Part shown: piece by piece, positions 5,445 through 24,513 of the stretch
Position numbering within the stretch: position 1 is the stretch's first letter
How the letters are laid out: each line of letters starts with the position of its first letter
Virus record (IMG/VR): IMGVR_UViG_3300027969_000407
Location: 1 to 24,583 of that record
DNA: 24,583 nucleotides
DNA from: a virus
Direction: 5' to 3' (one strand)
Made by a program: the position numbers and the translations under genes
Notes under the pieces: model-generated
What the model was told of the DNA's origin: nothing
What the model saw: only the letters and a program-made list of their open reading frames with translations
Database searches by the model: none

Positions 5445-5813
5445 TCAAACATTTGGTGCTTTTGGCCAAACAACTTCATTTGGATCAGAAAAACTTGTTG
5501 TAATGTCTCGTAACGCTTGTCTATATTCAGCCCATGCTGTTTTGTTTCCCGGCCAATCTGGCATTTGAGTATAATCAGACTGTGAAAGCAACTTGTTTCT
5601 AGTTTTCCTAATCATTCCCCAAGAAGCTTGATGTTGTCTTGGTTTGAGAACTAATTCTCCATCTTCAAGAACTAGGATATTTCCTTCTTCATTCATACTA
5701 AAAAGAAAGTGTTTATATTCATCTTCTGTAATCTCAATTGCATCATCAGGAATTGGAACCCCTGCTTCACTATTATAAAATCCCTCACTACTCACACTAA
5801 AATAAATTGTCAT
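5445..5813 (-). CDS. Tail fiber assembly chaperone
   Basis: This 122-residue protein has the pattern of phage tail-assembly chaperones. The N-terminal half (MTIYFSVSSEGFYNSE, then PIPDDAIEITEDEY) resembles the Caudo_TAP/Tfa N-terminus. The C-terminal half has RNKLLSQSDYTQMPDW, then WAEYRQALRDI and the end VVWPKAPNV, which matches the usual RN.LL..sDwt....W..YRQ.LRDi....VvWP..P signature of the phage tail APC family. Such proteins help a neighbouring fiber fold or trimerise and are normally encoded right after it. Here the gene starts 3 bases after the stop of the 465-residue fiber, its probable client; the 662-residue protein on the other side is a less likely partner. The Shine-Dalgarno match is weak, so translation may be coupled to the fiber gene. 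Confidence 0.85.
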   Translation of the reverse strand: MTIYFSVSSEGFYNSEAGVPIPDDAIEITEDEYKHFLFSMNEEGNILVLEDGELVLKPRQHQASWGMIRKTRNKLLSQSDYTQMPDWPGNKTAWAEYRQALRDITTSFSDPNEVVWPKAPNV

Positions 5814-5816
5814 AAA

Positions 5817-7214
5817 TTAAAAGCCCATTGCAATCCACCAAGCAGTTGTGTTTACGTTTTCTGTTGTCCAAGTTTGGAAGTATGAAGACCCTACTGTGAT
5901 TACTGTGGTTGAGTTTTCTGAAGCACTATTATCACCAACTTTAACGCCACCAGAAACAGTCACAGCAACATTTATAGTAGAGAATACTTGAGGAAAATAT
6001 ACAATTCCATAACTATCTTGCTTTGATGGCATTGATCCCCATTGTAATAGCATTCCATTTGGTAGTTTTACCCAATTTCCAGTACTTCCTGTTGTACTAC
6101 CAACACCCACACCAGTACCAGTAGTAAAATCAGATAGCTTTACGTATGAATCGCTTGGAATTAAAATTTCTTTGGCATTAATTGTACCATTTGATCCAAG
6201 TGTGATAGCATTCGTACCAGACTTGTTGCCGCTATAAACCTTAACACCATTTGTGAAGCGATGTGAAGAGAAGCCATCATTTAGATCGACAATATCGCCA
6301 TCACCAGAGATAATAATACCGCCACCAGAAGCATTTCCAGTTGATACAGTTAAGCTTCCTGATAGTGAGGCAGCAGTAGCAGAAAAACCACTAGTACCAG
6401 ACCATGACCATAGACCAGTACTGTCTACTGTGGCTGTACCATATGTGGTTGAGCCAAGATAATCAGTTACTCTAAACTTTGCATTACCTCCATTGGCACC
6501 ACGAAGATTCAAACCACCTATAGTTCCTGTTGCAGGAGTAAATGATTCAATATATCCAGCAGTACGGAATGCAGTGCCATTGAGAGAAAAGGTAGGATCA
6601 CCAGTAATAGAATATGATGCTGCCGACAATGTGGTAAATGCACCAGTATTAGCAACAGAAGAGCCGATACCAGCAGGAGCCGCCCATGTCTTTGATAAAA
6701 GCGTTGCAGAATTAGCAGAATTAAGTGTAGAAATGTATGTTGGATCAACAGAGACACCAGCAGCACCAACTGTAATACCTGTGCTTGCTCTCACTGAGAG
6801 ATTACCATTCATTGTTACATCGCCAATTATACCATCACCACCCTGTACTCTCGTAACAGTACCAAGACCAGCGTCAGTCCAATATAGACCAGTTGTACCA
6901 ATAGCTAAAATTTGGCCAGTTGTTCCGATTTTATTATTGGCAATGATCTTGATAGATGGACCAAAGGTAAATGATGTTGTATTGGCATAGATACCATCAC
7001 CAACTTGAAAAGAAGCTGATGAGTAAAATGTGTTTGTATTAAACCTGCCGTATAGAGTAGAGTTACGATTATTAGTAGGCGAACCAGTAACACCACTAGT
7101 GCTATTAGCAGTGAGAACTTCACTAGAAAATGCTTCTAAAAGTTGATTGGTACGTGCAATCCACGAACCAAATGTATCTACCTGAATGTCAACATTTGCG
7201 ACTTGTCTAGCCAT
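5817..7214 (-). CDS. Tail fiber with gp53-like C-terminal knob (probable receptor-binding protein)
   Basis: This 465-residue fiber has three parts. Residues 1-36 (VDIQVDTFGSWIARTNQLL) resemble the N-terminal attachment segment of short fibers in marine T4-like phages. Residues about 40-350 are Gly/Ser/Thr-rich beta sequence with a GQILAIGTTGLYW motif (100-112), a TVTRVQGGDGIIGDVTMNGN segment, and a KTWAAPAGIGSSVANTGAF module (175-193) related to the GRTWASP modules of the 1-2960 fiber. The C-terminal ~85 residues (WVKLPNGMLLQWGSM, IVYFPQVFSTINVAVTVSGG, then WWIAMGF at the end) match the gp53-like fiber C-terminal domain pattern (KLPNGLIIQWG...FP..F......WIAIG). That domain probably contacts the host receptor. 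The start overlaps the 64-residue gene by 8 bases, and the assembly chaperone follows immediately. Confidence 0.85.
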   Translation of the reverse strand: MARQVANVDIQVDTFGSWIARTNQLLEAFSSEVLTANSTSGVTGSPTNNRNSTLYGRFNTNTFYSSASFQVGDGIYANTTSFTFGPSIKIIANNKIGTTGQILAIGTTGLYWTDAGLGTVTRVQGGDGIIGDVTMNGNLSVRASTGITVGAAGVSVDPTYISTLNSANSATLLSKTWAAPAGIGSSVANTGAFTTLSAASYSITGDPTFSLNGTAFRTAGYIESFTPATGTIGGLNLRGANGGNAKFRVTDYLGSTTYGTATVDSTGLWSWSGTSGFSATAASLSGSLTVSTGNASGGGIIISGDGDIVDLNDGFSSHRFTNGVKVYSGNKSGTNAITLGSNGTINAKEILIPSDSYVKLSDFTTGTGVGVGSTTGSTGNWVKLPNGMLLQWGSMPSKQDSYGIVYFPQVFSTINVAVTVSGGVKVGDNSASENSTTVITVGSSYFQTWTTENVNTTAWWIAMGF

Positions 7215-19940: not shown

Positions 19941-21728
19941 TTATGCCCTGACAGCAACAGCGGTGATTTCAACGTCTTCTTCGATGATATTTAGGATAAC
20001 ATTATTGATGGTTGAAAGGTCTTTATACTTAGGTGACGCATAGATTTTAATACCAGCACCGACATATGAATCAATTTTAAAATTAGAAAACTGTAGTAAA
20101 CCAGTGTCGTAATCAATCTTACCAACAGCCTCAATAAACTGCCCGGAAGATGCTGAGATGACCTGAATGCTGCTAACACCATCATCCTTCAGAACAGCCT
20201 TGTTACCCTTATAATTAAATACGGTTGAAGAGATTGAATATCCCTTACCATCTGTACCATAAGTGATGCTCAAAGGAATACGGAACTTAACGTCAAAGGT
20301 TAGTAGAGTACCAGTTTGAGGAACAAAAACCTTAATGATCTTAATATCAGTCTCGTTCGAGATGATTGATGCCTGTGAAGTATCTACAGCTTGTACGAGC
20401 TTTGAATAACGGAAGATACGATTAAAATTATTTAGGTTTGTCTGAGCATAATTGATGATAGCAGACTTTGTGATTGTCTTGATATCTTCTGTTGACAGAC
20501 GTGTAATATTTACGTTATAATTAACTGTTGATTTAACCTGAATGTATGTGTATTCAGGATCAACGAATACTGGATCAATCGAAACAGGGGAACGTGGCTT
20601 CAGGAAGTTATAGTATTGATCGATCTTTACCTTTGGTAAGCTATCAACTTCATTAAGATCAACAGCAACAAATACTTTACCAAACTGTGGTGGATCAAGG
20701 TTCTCACCGCCATATGCAGTAACAGCGTTGACTTCAGGGAAGTTAATCTTAAGTAATGTTTCATAGTCTTCTGTAGTAATCGCACGTTCTTGTGTGTTGA
20801 AGTGACGTGGAGCATTATACTTGATTGATTCAAGGCTCTCACTAATAGCACCACCAGAAGCACTTTGATTAGTAGTAATACTAATTGCCGATTCATCATC
20901 AATAGTTGCATCAGGAGTAAATGTGCTACATCCGTTTGGAAGTTCACCATTAGATACACGATATTCAATAGTAATTACTGAATTGTTCTTTGGCATTCTA
21001 CCATTTACGCCATCACCAAATACGATTTCATAGCTATCGTTTTCAGCCCCTTGTACAAAGAATACCTGTGAAGTAGAGTTGATATCAAATAGTGATTGTG
21101 CTCTATTATAGACAAGAGTAGTAGCACCAACGTCTTCCATTATATTAACTGTAATAGATGATGTATCAACATTCTTATTAGAAATAATGAAACGCTGTGG
21201 GTCGGTTGATGAATAGGTATAATTATCCGCTACATAATATCCTTCATAGATAGGAATATTAGCGCCAATAAAGGTTAACTGTGTGCGTCCAGCATTCTGT
21301 GTATAGTCTGAAATAATAATATTTTCAGCAGTACTGAATGTAAAGTTTCTAGGACCAAATCGTGAGGTAAATGTATATCCCTTTGGAATAACAATTGAAC
21401 GCTTATTAAGAACATTACTGGTAACAGTTACACTCACATTAGCCTGAGAGGACTTGAATGAACGAGGAACGTAGTTAAGTTCTTTAGCATGAGATACAAC
21501 GCTATCACGAAGCTGAGCAGAATCAAGGAACATCTCACTGCCAACCATGTTTAGATAGAAGGCATTGTGGAATGTATTATACGATAGAATGTCAAGCAGA
21601 ACAGACATGTTGCTGCCATCGAAATCATAATCTTTAAATCTATCTTGTGTCTTTAGATATGACTTGAATGTGTTCTTGATCGTATCAAAGTCTAGACTTG
21701 ATAGAACAATTGAAGAATTAGCTGACAT
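19941..21728 (-). CDS. gp6: Baseplate wedge protein gp6 (baseplate J-like)
   Basis: This 595-residue protein has the layout of T4 gp6 (660 residues) and marine relatives. Early residues contain LDFDTIKNTFKSYLKTQDRF and YDFDGSNMSVLLDILSYNTF then HNAFYLNMVGSEMFLDSA (about 38-72), the typical start of gp6/J-like wedge proteins. The core carries SYEIVFGDGVNGRMPKN (about 231-247), the J-protein FGDG.nG..P signature, and the C-terminal third includes RAITTEDYETLL and a FPEVNAVTAYGGENLDPPQF segment. gp6 dimers form the inner ring around the hub and trigger sheath contraction. Its ATG overlaps the gp25 TAA by one base (TAATG) with AGGA 7 bases upstream; a perfect TATAAATA lies 46 bases upstream inside gp25. 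Confidence 0.93.
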   Translation of the reverse strand: MSANSSIVLSSLDFDTIKNTFKSYLKTQDRFKDYDFDGSNMSVLLDILSYNTFHNAFYLNMVGSEMFLDSAQLRDSVVSHAKELNYVPRSFKSSQANVSVTVTSNVLNKRSIVIPKGYTFTSRFGPRNFTFSTAENIIISDYTQNAGRTQLTFIGANIPIYEGYYVADNYTYSSTDPQRFIISNKNVDTSSITVNIMEDVGATTLVYNRAQSLFDINSTSQVFFVQGAENDSYEIVFGDGVNGRMPKNNSVITIEYRVSNGELPNGCSTFTPDATIDDESAISITTNQSASGGAISESLESIKYNAPRHFNTQERAITTEDYETLLKINFPEVNAVTAYGGENLDPPQFGKVFVAVDLNEVDSLPKVKIDQYYNFLKPRSPVSIDPVFVDPEYTYIQVKSTVNYNVNITRLSTEDIKTITKSAIINYAQTNLNNFNRIFRYSKLVQAVDTSQASIISNETDIKIIKVFVPQTGTLLTFDVKFRIPLSITYGTDGKGYSISSTVFNYKGNKAVLKDDGVSSIQVISASSGQFIEAVGKIDYDTGLLQFSNFKIDSYVGAGIKIYASPKYKDLSTINNVILNIIEEDVEITAVAVRA

Positions 21729-22147
21729 TACCTGATCCTGTCGAGTGTAATATTAAATGAAATTGGTTCTTGTTTATTTATAACCATGATTATGAGGTTG
21801 ATGACATAACGATGATTATCCCCATCAGGAACAATATCAATTTTGATTATCTTTGCTCGTGGTTCAAATGTATTAATTGTTTGTTGTACAAATACAGAGA
21901 TGTTCTGTGCTGTAGACCCACTGATTGGTTCGAATAGCATCTTCTGAATATCAGTGCCAATAGTTGGCTGATAAAGACGATCAAACTTATTGGTTAATAG
22001 TAGATTACGAATAGAGCGAATGACAGCATTCTCGTTAACATACTTAACGATATCACCCGAAACAGGATGTGGATTAAGATCAGTTAGAAAGTCACTATAT
22101 GACTGACTATCTCTATTCATTGCTGCAAATCTATCTGTCTTAACCAT
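21728..22147 (-). CDS. gp25: Baseplate wedge protein gp25 (GPW/gp25 family)
   Basis: At 139 residues it is close to T4 gp25 (132). The sequence has the family pattern: FLTDLNPHPVSGDIVKYVNE, VIRSIRNLLLTNKFDRLYQP (about 43-62), GTDIQKMLFEP (about 64-74), and the hallmark EPR core motif in INTFEPRAKIIKIDIVPDGD (about 91-110), followed by a beta-strand C-terminus. gp25 links the wedge (gp6, gp53) to the tube and sheath and is one of the most conserved contractile-tail proteins. It starts 11 bases after the preceding stop with an AGAGAGA purine run and shares its last stop base with the gp6 start. Confidence 0.95.
   Translation of the reverse strand: MVKTDRFAAMNRDSQSYSDFLTDLNPHPVSGDIVKYVNENAVIRSIRNLLLTNKFDRLYQPTIGTDIQKMLFEPISGSTAQNISVFVQQTINTFEPRAKIIKIDIVPDGDNHRYVINLIIMVINKQEPISFNITLDRIR
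21775..21782 (-). promoter_or_regulatory. Candidate T4 late promoter (perfect TATAAATA) upstream of gp6
   Basis: TATAAATA on the minus strand exactly matches the T4 late consensus and lies 46 bases before the gp6 ATG, within the last codons of gp25 (Val-Ile-Asn-Lys). The spacing would give a leader carrying the gp6 Shine-Dalgarno site. It is inside coding sequence, and similar octamers occur by chance elsewhere in this AT-rich window, so the call is tentative. Confidence 0.4.
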
Positions 22148-22158
22148 TTATTCTCTCT

Positions 22159-23607
22159 TTATGGAATTGATACTGGATCAGAATCGATTGCAAGTGTGTA
22201 ACGAGCAGACGAAGCAATCACTTTACATTTAATTTGCTTACCAACATCACTTGATGTGATTAGATATGAACTATTGGCTGCTGTTACCATGTCTGTGTTT
22301 CTGAACCACTGATAGTCATACTTTGTCGGTGTGAAGCCCGTCCACGTACCAGTAGAGCACTGTAGTCTACTGCCAACTGATAGTGAACCAGAGATAACTG
22401 GTAAATTAGCAGCAGGAACGCTATAGACAACAGGACCAACTTCATTGGACTTGATTTCAATATAACCAGCCTTATTCTCACCAACTACCTGACAATAGAT
22501 ATTAAGATCAATATCATCAATCGATGGAGAATAACTGAATGAGTTAGCATTATAGATTGGGTTGCCTTCACGATACCACTGAGCACTGTATGTCATAGCT
22601 GCATTGCTTGTCCATACGCCTGTGTTGCATGTTACAGTGTTACCTACAATTGCATAACCAGAAGCAACTGGTAATTCTTCATTTACAGGAGCAACAGTAT
22701 TAACAAATTCTTGGTTCTGTGCCTTATAGGTTTCGAATGCACCGCTATCAATACTTGCTTGGAAGCTCTCTAGACTATCAGTAGCAATTGCAGGTGGAAT
22801 ACCTGTAATGCCTTGCATCTGTGTCTGTGCCTGAGAAATCTGTCCAAGGCTGTTATTAGCATCACCAACGAGTGTATTCTTTAGTTCCTTAGCAGCCTGT
22901 AGAGTATCTTCAACCGCATGGAAAGCTGTTACCGCATCACCGATAGCTTGGAAGCCAGATGCACCAACACCTTCACAGATAAACTTTGCAATAGCACTAG
23001 AAATCTTTTTCTCAAGCTTCTTCACTGCCTGATTGATTTCATTCTTAATATCTGCCTTAACCATATCAACAATTTCAATTGCACATGCTTTAAGCTTTGG
23101 TATTACTTCCGATACTGCTTTAATTAAATCAGTAACGGCTAAAATTAACCCAAGAATTTCTAAAGTATATTTGATAAATGCTTCAAGCTGTGGAATGATT
23201 GTACCAGTAACAAGCTTACCTAGCCACTTGACAATACCCCATGGAGTAGGGCTTGGAAGAGATGTGATAGGAAGATATTTCTTTAGTAGTTCTAATTGTT
23301 CTTCAACAGCTTTTATTGCTTGCTTTTTAATATCATCTAAGTGTTGCTTGACAATAAGCTTTAGAGCATTACAATCGGTTACTGATCTAATTTGTTGTGT
23401 TAATTCTTTGATACGCTTTGTATTGACAACCAAGGTATCTTCTTGGTTCATTTCAATCTTATTGTCACGCTTTCCTGCACAAGGATCGCTTGTATTACCA
23501 TTAACAACAATCTCTTCTTCACCCACAGTTTCAGGTGCTCCAATAGTGCCTTGACTATTGAGTAGTGTTGATGATCCAGAGCCTGTTGCTATTGGCGTAT
23601 CAGCCAT
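22159..23607 (-). CDS. Virion protein with helical N-terminus and two C-terminal Ig-like domains, unknown function
   Basis: ATG at 23607 is chosen (482 residues) because AAGGA lies 6 bases upstream, overlapping the gp5 stop; an in-frame TTG two codons earlier is less likely. Numbering from that ATG, residues about 55-245 are helical, with charged amphipathic stretches, a hydrophobic run (YTLEILGLILAVTDLIKAVS, 147-166) and SPTPWGIVKWLGKLV (119-133). There are four cysteines in this half. Residues about 310-392 and 401-482 are two Ig-like domains, each with a C-x-tG-W...QW(Y/F)R...C pattern (VTCNTGVW, AQWYREG, IYCQVVG; LQCSTGTW, YQWFRN, IKCKVIAS). Ig-like domains on phage virions often bind surface glycans weakly. 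Lying between gp5 and gp25, it may be a hub-associated protein. I do not recognise the N-terminal half. Confidence 0.75.
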   Translation of the reverse strand: MADTPIATGSGSSTLLNSQGTIGAPETVGEEEIVVNGNTSDPCAGKRDNKIEMNQEDTLVVNTKRIKELTQQIRSVTDCNALKLIVKQHLDDIKKQAIKAVEEQLELLKKYLPITSLPSPTPWGIVKWLGKLVTGTIIPQLEAFIKYTLEILGLILAVTDLIKAVSEVIPKLKACAIEIVDMVKADIKNEINQAVKKLEKKISSAIAKFICEGVGASGFQAIGDAVTAFHAVEDTLQAAKELKNTLVGDANNSLGQISQAQTQMQGITGIPPAIATDSLESFQASIDSGAFETYKAQNQEFVNTVAPVNEELPVASGYAIVGNTVTCNTGVWTSNAAMTYSAQWYREGNPIYNANSFSYSPSIDDIDLNIYCQVVGENKAGYIEIKSNEVGPVVYSVPAANLPVISGSLSVGSRLQCSTGTWTGFTPTKYDYQWFRNTDMVTAANSSYLITSSDVGKQIKCKVIASSARYTLAIDSDPVSIP

Positions 23608-23613
23608 ATTCAA

Positions 23614-23618
23614 TCCTT
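23614..23618 (-). promoter_or_regulatory. Shine-Dalgarno (AAGGA) favouring ATG at 23607
   Basis: AAGGA on the minus strand lies 6 bases before ATG at 23607 and overlaps the gp5 stop codon. From the alternative TTG at 23613 it would have no spacing, so the ATG start is preferred. Confidence 0.6.
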
Positions 23619-24513
23619 AACCAATTTTTGTTACAATGCCCTTATTGACATGAATAGTCTTACCTGATGGTGACGAAAATGTTCCTGTAGCACCAGTAGC
23701 CATTGATACAGTGCCGATAGTAGTAAAGCTTCCTTCAGTCTGCACTAGGCCACCTGGTGATTGGATATTAATACTTGTTCCTGAGTTAATATTGACACCC
23801 ATAACGCCATTAATATCAATTTTACCAGCAGAAGATAATATCATATTACCAGCACTAGTAATGGTTGACTTACCTTCAACGATAGAATCCAAGTTACCCT
23901 TTACATGGATATTTGCATTACCTTCGATATATACATTCTTATTCTTACCGACGATTTCAAAGCTATCATCGACAGTCTTTAAAATCATACGTCCATCTTT
24001 ATTTATTTCAACATATGTACCCTTGCTGTGGCGAATATGTAATCTTTCATTGTCTGGGGTATCATCGATTTCAATAATGTGACCAGCACGAGTAACGATT
24101 GCACGGTTATATGGATACTTTGCGGCATATGATGATTCTGGTTCATTACCGACTTTCTTATTGACAACCGTTTGCTTCTCTCTAGCAAGGAATGGAATAG
24201 AACTATTCTTGTCCTCATCTCCCGGTAGATATGGAATGGTACCAACGATCATTGGGTATTGTTTGTCTTCTCCATCAAGGAAGAACCCAAATACGAATGA
24301 ACCAGCCAGAAGGCCCGGTGTGTCGCCAATACCTTGAAAGCTACCGCTAGTCGTAGGCATCATCACAATAGCGTCAGGAAGCCTGTCAGTAGCCAAATCT
24401 TCATGAATACCAAACGCACGTACCTTCACACCACCAAGCTTCATTGCATCTGTTGTGTTATCTTCTACGATACCAACAAACCAACGAAATCCTTGTTGTC
24501 CCATCTTAAACAT
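23617..24513 (-). CDS. gp5: Baseplate hub spike protein gp5 homologue without lysozyme domain
   Basis: This 298-residue protein begins with a gp5-type OB fold: WFVGIVEDNTTDAMKLGGVK, VRAFGIHEDL, MMPTTSGSFQGIGDTPGLL, VFGFFLDGEDKQYPMIVGTI (about 11-93). It continues with the VgrG/gp5-like segment AGHIIEIDDTPDNERLHIRH then GTYVEINKDG (143-174), and a C-terminal triple beta-helix with short alternating repeats (about 190-255, for example NVYIEGNANIHVKGNLDSIV). T4 gp5 has 575 residues with a lysozyme domain between OB fold and helix; only about 85 residues separate them here and no lysozyme motif is visible. It should form the trimeric membrane-piercing spike at the hub. ATG at 24513 has GGAG 8 bases upstream and shares one base with the preceding TAA. 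Confidence 0.88.
   Translation of the reverse strand: MFKMGQQGFRWFVGIVEDNTTDAMKLGGVKVRAFGIHEDLATDRLPDAIVMMPTTSGSFQGIGDTPGLLAGSFVFGFFLDGEDKQYPMIVGTIPYLPGDEDKNSSIPFLAREKQTVVNKKVGNEPESSYAAKYPYNRAIVTRAGHIIEIDDTPDNERLHIRHSKGTYVEINKDGRMILKTVDDSFEIVGKNKNVYIEGNANIHVKGNLDSIVEGKSTITSAGNMILSSAGKIDINGVMGVNINSGTSINIQSPGGLVQTEGSFTTIGTVSMATGATGTFSSPSGKTIHVNKGIVTKIG

Follow-up and report, generated by a model that had tools for sequence, protein, structure and literature searches.

In the viral DNA above, the genes for a gp5-like central spike and for the baseplate wedge protein gp25 are separated by one further gene. The question this locus raises is what the product of that gene does at such a position, and whether it is tied to the spike whose gene it directly follows. 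We address this here for the window, that is, the whole 24,583-nucleotide stretch that was analysed, and for related loci in viral contigs; the gene is called the slot gene, and the gp5–gp25 interval the slot.

The slot gene and its neighbours

The slot gene (22159–23607, minus strand) runs from an ATG at 23607 to a stop codon at 22159–22161 and encodes 482 residues, a helical half followed by two Ig-like repeats, which confirms the protein of this length that the first-pass annotation had placed between the spike and gp25. It begins 9 bases after the end of gp5 and finishes 11 bases before gp25, with an AAGGA of its own, resembling a Shine-Dalgarno sequence, six bases ahead of the ATG (23614–23618, minus strand); the coupled translation that had also been proposed is not supported. 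Six more full-length relatives occur in viral contigs at 66–83% identity, two of them being near copies. Compared with three relatives, the gene has a dN/dS of 0.13–0.23 over its whole length, about 0.09–0.23 in the helical half and 0.09–0.15 in the Ig half, these values being ratios of computed dN and dS with dS near or above 1 in two of the three comparisons. Full-length relatives at such identities, together with the low dN/dS, point to purifying selection and indicate that the ORF is not a chance one. One close relative (L004:1895-3397) has an in-frame stop within the second Ig repeat.

The spike gene itself (23617–24513, minus strand, 298 aa) matches gp5 in its OB domain and beta-helix (PHROG 430, E 1e-64; Pfam Gp5_OB above its cut-off), and Pfam gives no match for a lysozyme domain in it. 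On the far side of the slot gene, and on the same strand, lie the baseplate wedge genes gp25 (21728–22147; PHROG 261, E 2.6e-33; Pfam PF04965 above cut-off) and gp6 (19941–21728; PHROG 219, E 2.7e-158), which overlap by one base; the names gp5, gp25 and gp6 are based here on PHROG and Pfam matches. Elsewhere in the window (5445–5813, 5817–7214), a match to a tail assembly chaperone (PF16778, E 3.4e-18) adjoins a protein whose C-terminus is gp53-like, of the tail fibre kind (PF21882, E 1.6e-8). A tandem repeat with a 66-base unit in 2.7 copies (2395–2575) lies inside an open-ended ORF of 986 aa, whose product repeats NNSTYAYGKQESQLSVAN-like units.

A conserved helical core

Within the helical half, residues 57–303 (22699–23439, minus strand) form a conserved core that contains Cys79, Cys175 and Cys211 and is delimited by profiles and models, its best conserved stretch in the alignments being residues 117–135 (LPSPTPWGIVKWLGKLVTG; 23203–23259, minus strand). 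Residues 1–56 (23440–23607, minus strand) are an N-terminal extension with Cys43, modelled at low confidence (pLDDT block means 30–43) and varying in length among close relatives (alignment A1). The first-pass annotation had described this half as unrecognised and as carrying four cysteines, and both descriptions hold: the cysteines are those just named, and residues 57–303 have no acceptable match in Pfam, PHROG or PDB sequences. Searching residues 1–302 against 50,697 phage records by tblastn gives a best E of about 7–10, two stand-alone relatives of the core find no match in the phage records either, and a search of genome contigs finds none for the helical half. No paper on this family was found, as judged by titles and abstract openings.

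A profile made from the close relatives of the window's protein does, on the other hand, reach distant relatives of the core in viral contigs, and after two more scans the iterated profile recovers 106 ORFs, each from a different locus, which amount to 55 distinct sequences. Alignments of stand-alone and fused cores, built separately, match each other with an hhalign probability of 99.95 (E 1e-38), which indicates that the two forms are one family. The helical half is conserved and constitutes a family in its own right. Some relatives give weak Pfam matches that we read as chance helical matches, all below the Pfam cut-offs where scores are given: Baculo_PEP_C in 12 of 36 relatives (best E 8.8e-5), and PspA_IM30 (4.7e-5), CorA (3.9e-4) and DUF7217 (6.5e-4) in a single relative each.

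Two of the cysteines behave as a pair. In the core alignment (47 rows, two of them truncated for this comparison), 39 of the 45 informative rows have Cys79 as well as Cys175, 6 have neither and none has just one, and the losses fall into three groups (L031/L038/L201; L086; L048/L074). The pairing of Cys43 and Cys211 is less clean. Both occur in 19 of the 47 rows, both columns are missing in 21, and five rows have another letter at 211 and no Cys43 (L032, L033, L230, L202, L076); the one-sided rows are L024, whose contig begins after Cys43, and L073, which has a gap at 211 and where we read a nearby Cys as the partner of Cys43. We infer disulfides 79–175 and 43–211 in the helical half; the joint presence and loss of Cys79 and Cys175 argues for the former and, through it, for a protein that would mature outside the cytoplasm. 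The full-length model (mean pLDDT 72.4, pTM 0.51) is confident in its Ig part, and the helical part, modelled from 47 sequences, is predicted with middling confidence as a bundle with one 77-residue helix (pLDDT 73.0, pTM 0.66).

Ig repeats and exchangeable C-terminal domains

The C-terminal half consists of repeat 1 at residues 305–396 (22420–22695, minus strand; Cys327/Cys372, Trp332/Trp344), matched by PHROG 26223 over 304–396 (E 1.3e-13), and repeat 2 at residues 397–482 (22162–22419, minus strand; Cys417/Cys461, Trp422/Trp434), for which Pfam IG_AIR9 gives E 0.0013, below its cut-off; all Pfam Ig models score under their cut-offs on this protein. The models of the two repeats have pLDDT block means of 84–95 and 88–95, and their matches to known structures are Ig domains with Z up to 10.1. 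The PHROG match and the confident model thus bear out the earlier description of this half as two Ig-like repeats in which Cys and Trp are paired. A full-length relative in UniProt, A0A6J5MAK8 of an uncultured Caudovirales phage (36% identity over 505 columns, Foldseek E 9.7e-40), carries the sole name 'Ig-like domain-containing protein'.

What follows the core varies within the family. The core occurs alone, at about 200 aa (for example L117, L029, L197, L095, L101, L031); with two Ig repeats (the window, L112, L115, L032), three (L217) or two and a further domain (L109, L225); with a TIG domain (L152, L159; PF01833 E 5e-12 for L152; 3 of 36 rows of A6); with a PKD-like end in L232 (weak, E 0.071); and with other beta-rich ends (L086, L202, L081; L048, L074). 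TIG and PKD are Pfam names here, whereas the sequences themselves were read to count the Ig repeats and to identify the other beta-rich ends. As far as these sequences tell, the core family is a module with changing C-terminal domains.

The gp5–gp25 interval as a probable cassette position

The placement beside gp5 and gp25 recurs across the relatives. All 106 core ORFs have gp5 just before or gp25 just after them in the fetched locus, and 85 have both. Among the 21 with one flank, three (L073, L076, L199) have another ORF after the core, and the remaining 18 run up to the locus end or stop no more than 160 bases short of it. In 104 distinct intervals, the slot holds the core in 40, nothing in 25, PAAR in 15, two unrelated helical families in 11 and 4 and something else in 9, counts that lean towards the window's kin, so that 40 of 104 is no frequency, since the loci were found with the core family, gp5 and gp6, keeping the best 80 of several hundred per gp5 or gp6 scan. 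With the core left out as a query, 92 intervals remain, of which 31 hold the core, 24 are empty, 15 hold PAAR, 11 and 4 the two helical families and 7 something else. The intervals were made distinct by their gp25 and gp5 sequences, with close relatives remaining among them, and gp5s were recognised by a profile of five sequences (A5) at E 1e-8, which misses remote gp5s.

Core and PAAR are found together in none of the 104 intervals. A search of whole contigs with a PAAR profile (A7) finds PAAR in 0 of 19 core-bearing contigs versus 2 of 11 others, which says little, since 9 of the 11 core-free contigs also are without PAAR and the contigs are fragments. On a gp6 tree of 92 rows (quick LG+G4, 23 of 89 inner branches open), the core label changes 8 times, 7 of them forced by well-supported branches, against a shuffled mean of 26.9, and all slot labels together change 22 times; these changes indicate that the slot has been refilled repeatedly. 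The tree and the contrasts drawn from it exclude the window (locus L011), whose gp6 is cut, and the tail counts below include it.

The other helical occupants of the slot (A11 in L049, L056, L051 and L079, among others; A10 in L165, L169, L170 and L157) show no homology to the core family by hhalign (probabilities of 2.9% and 1.3%, respectively). The same interval in Sinorhizobium phage phiM12 holds gp110, annotated as a peptidase, with a long N-terminal part that we read as helical and a C-terminal Peptidase_M15_3 domain (E 8.1e-19); its N-terminal part differs from the core family (hhalign probability 1.0%), and its gp5 is without the matching tail described below. This M15 slot protein (L189:4886-6448) stands beside a gp5 annotated as tail lysozyme and perhaps provides a second wall-cutting activity at the spike. 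Other arrangements also occur: phage DLP_6 has gp5 32 bases before gp25 and an empty slot; gp5 lies apart from gp25 in cyanophages P-SSM2, Syn10 and P-TIM68 as well as in HTVC008M; and in Vibrio phages D507 and K469 gp5 ends bluntly, D507 having a PAAR gene two genes on.

The gp5 tail switches with the slot gene

When the last 85 residues of gp5 are compared by slot content, the gp5s beside the core are seen by eye to extend beyond the beta-helix in a tail some 45 residues long; the consensus of nine such tails reads PGGVxVxxGxLxxxGxIxSxxGxTGTFTTPxGKxVxVxKGIVTNI. In the window this tail, which accompanies the slot family, is residues 254–298 of gp5 (GGLVQTEGSFTTIGTVSMATGATGTFSSPSGKTIHVNKGIVTKIG; 23620–23754, minus strand). 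A single-pass profile of the tail, which draws only on 6 gp5s from the clade of the window and was used at E 1e-3, matches 34 of 39 distinct gp5s beside the core versus 0 of 62 others (Fisher p 7e-22, uncorrected for relatedness), the other five core-linked tails being too divergent for it. The iterated profile matches 39 of 39 versus 3 of 62, and the three exceptions (L084, L121, L127) are partial matches, which we read as drift of the profile into beta-helix repeats. To take relatedness into account, independent contrasts were drawn from a 90-row gp6 tree, whose supported branches yield 7 pairs. Of these 7, a mean of 6.9 agree by the iterated tail call and 6.5 by the single-pass call, with 0.0 opposing in either case (sign test p 0.0156–0.0312).

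Could the tail and the slot gene simply travel together with the whole of gp5? Among phages with 60–70% gp6 identity, core/non-core pairs (23) have mean identities of 0.59 in the gp5 N-terminal part, 0.52 in the middle and 0.15 in the last 50 residues, versus 0.52, 0.47 and 0.39 for core/core pairs (99). At 70–80% gp6 identity, the values are 0.68, 0.48 and 0.12 for core/non-core (8 pairs) versus 0.77, 0.67 and 0.62 for core/core (9 pairs). The pairs share rows and hence are not independent, and the comparison covers 77 of 101 gp5s, namely those of 230–460 aa with a gp6 row of at least 400 aa, which drops 11 of the 39 core-linked gp5s, L011 included. In these close pairs the body of gp5 is kept while its tail changes, and transfer of the whole gene does not account for them. 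Exchange of all of gp5 also takes place, since at 50–60% gp6 identity the N-terminal part falls to 0.40 across groups versus 0.53, and since L091 and L100 have quite different gp5s (N-terminal part 0.11 and 0.13 to the nearest core phage). Since the slot gene adjoins gp5, some of the co-switching is accounted for by linked transfer of the two.

Other ways in which gp5 ends

Beside PAAR, 12 of 14 distinct gp5s end bluntly by pattern (of the ...IDLN type) and 2 are unclassed. The same blunt end is present in 11 of 11 gp5s beside A11 and 4 of 4 beside A10, and it is thus, by these patterns, not special to PAAR. Of the 24 distinct gp5s with an empty slot, 9 have HxH and 4 a PAAR-like TVFIG/TVIIG end, the others being mixed; when all 24 are classed by end pattern, 12 are unclassable and 1 is blunt. 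A spike may thus need no partner, as the unclassed or blunt ends beside empty slots suggest. In L122, L123, L131, L132 and L134, gp5 itself seems to end in a PAAR-like stretch (...TVFIGD, TVIIGD or TVFIGG).

HxH near the end of gp5, counted by the pattern H.H, is found in 0 of 39 gp5s beside the core, 0 of 14 beside PAAR and 12 of 62 without the core family (8 with the narrower H[ST]H). The twelve are L030, L077, L085, L089, L103, L130, L136, L143, L149, L144, L156 and L162; they resemble P2 gpV in this respect, and 9 of their intervals are without a slot gene. Close kin of L030 and L089 have the helical core family in the slot instead.

A proposed spike-tip partner of gp5

We propose, at a probability of about 0.58, that the slot protein pairs with the tip of the gp5 spike as a partner other than PAAR, docking through its helical half and carrying exchangeable C-terminal domains. 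This reading is the most economical since a change in the end of gp5 goes with a change of the following gene, known spike ends (PAAR; HxH) being among the alternatives. Blunt gp5 ends away from PAAR, and the many spikes that have no partner gene, lower its odds slightly. The first-pass annotation had suggested a baseplate or tail-tip component; the link to the hub and tail tip is supported, and it can be sharpened to the spike tip since the C-terminal tail of gp5 switches with the slot gene. The setting would be T4-like phages whose gp5 has neither an adjoining PAAR protein nor an HxH apex. There, the helical half (residues about 57–303), held by the two putative disulfides, would dock on trimeric gp5 at its special C-terminal tail, and the Ig repeats would be the outer modules of the tip. 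When the sheath contracts, gp5 and the tip would together be pushed across the outer envelope, and the outer module would then meet a host surface or periplasmic component. The docking on gp5, the copy number, the disulfides, the presence in the virion and the Ig ligand are all features that we infer from sequence.

The protein might alternatively be a baseplate or tail-tip adhesin away from the spike, with its Ig repeats facing outward on the hub or wedge, a gp5 tail that is self-sufficient and a co-switching due to adjacency only. Its Ig repeats are similar to repeats found in further virion proteins of phages (PHROG 12736, virion structural; 4069, Hoc-like), variable C-terminal domains are found in adhesins too, gp5 and the slot gene are 9 bases apart, and 25 of 104 intervals hold a gp5 without an adjoining partner gene. 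Linkage, however, should carry the body of gp5 as well, whereas close pairs differ at the gp5 end alone, and the slot is the position of PAAR; we thus regard the adhesin as unlikely. The slot protein could also be a chaperone or loader that folds or caps the gp5 tail during assembly and is absent from the virion, comparable with DUF2169, an accessory protein for a non-canonical tip in type VI secretion systems (T6SS), which together with its tip partner likewise co-occurs strictly with a particular spike end (PMC11883445). The stand-alone form of the core, a small helical protein, would suit such a role, but the Ig, TIG and PKD-like fusions and the putative disulfides are better suited to an extracellular or virion protein, and we give the chaperone a rather small chance.

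Two further alternatives start from the helical half. Its hydrophobic run, noted at first at about residues 147–166, is present, with a Kyte-Doolittle 19-residue mean of 1.63 at 148–166 and a best value of 1.93 at 151–169. A hydrophobic stretch at 144–169 would suit a membrane-active pilot, whose helical half opens or inserts in the inner membrane after entry of the tip, somewhat like ClyA-type pore formers. The helical model aligns with ClyA pore chains at Z 10.8 and 10.6 (192 residues aligned, rmsd 4.1 and 4.0) and with AhlB, AhlC, SmhB and MakA at Z 8.9–9.6. Foldseek against the PDB has no match at E 0.001; a designed protein comes top and the ClyA-type group next, at E 0.011 or worse, and the helical part of the full-length model matches STAT coiled coils as well as ClyA-type toxins. 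These Z scores, however, tie with those of MukF, syntaxin and designed bundles and fall short of the value of about 13 that the tool sets for helical proteins; the ClyA-type likeness of the model is a lead only. Furthermore, 11 of the 13 relatives scored have a best 19-residue hydropathy of 0.9–1.5, the remaining two having 2.0 and 2.6, and the proposed membrane insertion, taken as a trait of the family, is not supported. Since the high hydropathy is missing in these 11, we read the run as a buried amphipathic helix, and a membrane-active pilot seems very improbable. The slot protein as cargo or plug in the tail tube, related to the tape measure, would account for the weak matches to tape measures in PHROG, with E 0.064 for the slot protein, a best E of 0.00082 for relative L053 and others scattered among the relatives; yet these matches are helical and fall on a multitude of profiles at once, which we read as composition, the tube would have to accommodate two Ig domains, and a tube cargo has no link to the gp5 tail. 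We hold it to be the most improbable of these readings.

If the spike-tip reading is true, the tip unit of spike tail and adaptor would be swapped whole and, with its interchangeable domains, would provide a natural series for studying tip function. The sequence rule relating the gp5 ending to its partner would annotate many unnamed environmental phage genes, and the gp5–gp25 interval would be shown to be a cassette position. How a T4-like needle tip handles the periplasm and the inner membrane is open even in T4 (PMC7600766).

Comparison with known spike tips and Ig proteins

In T4, gp5.4, a PAAR protein, sits on the C-terminal triple helix of gp5, travels with gp5 and leads the tube into the cell (PMC7600766). 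The slot gene likewise stands directly after gp5, where PAAR is found in 15 of the 104 intervals of this group. A PAAR domain is, on the other hand, lacking in the slot protein in a Pfam scan at E 1, and profile A7 finds none in window ORFs of at least 60 aa even at E 10. Moreover, the window's gp5 has an added 45-residue tail in place of a blunt end, and the slot core is predicted to be helical, unlike the PAAR fold. With neither the motif nor the blunt gp5 end found, the slot protein is not a PAAR protein. PAAR proteins are known with C-terminal extension domains (PMC8651086), and under the spike-tip reading the slot protein would work like such an extended tip, yet is no PAAR protein.

Another spike end is the HxH iron apex fused to the spike itself, as in P2 gpV, phi92 and R2 pyocin (PMC6116203). 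None of the 39 core-linked gp5s has it; they have a separate partner gene instead. A non-canonical tip in T6SS, as set out in PMC11883445, consists of a VgrG with a PIPY domain and a strictly co-occurring DUF2169 protein. There, as in the slot family, the spike end depends on a co-occurring extra protein, whereas DUF2169 is described as a chaperone with a fold of its own; the comparison of sequences covered here is that of the Pfam scans.

The two C-terminal repeats are of the same kind as the Ig-like decoration domains of Hoc and Menderavirus, but are fused here to a helical domain that is linked with the spike. We tentatively go further, at somewhat less than even odds, and suggest another class of contractile-spike tip, in which a gp5 tail and a disulfide-locked helical adaptor would replace PAAR or HxH as the exchangeable unit and would serve as a platform for swappable outer domains (Ig, TIG, PKD-like). 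The gp5 tail and its helical adaptor would then correspond, on the phage side, to the extended PAAR tips that secretion systems carry.
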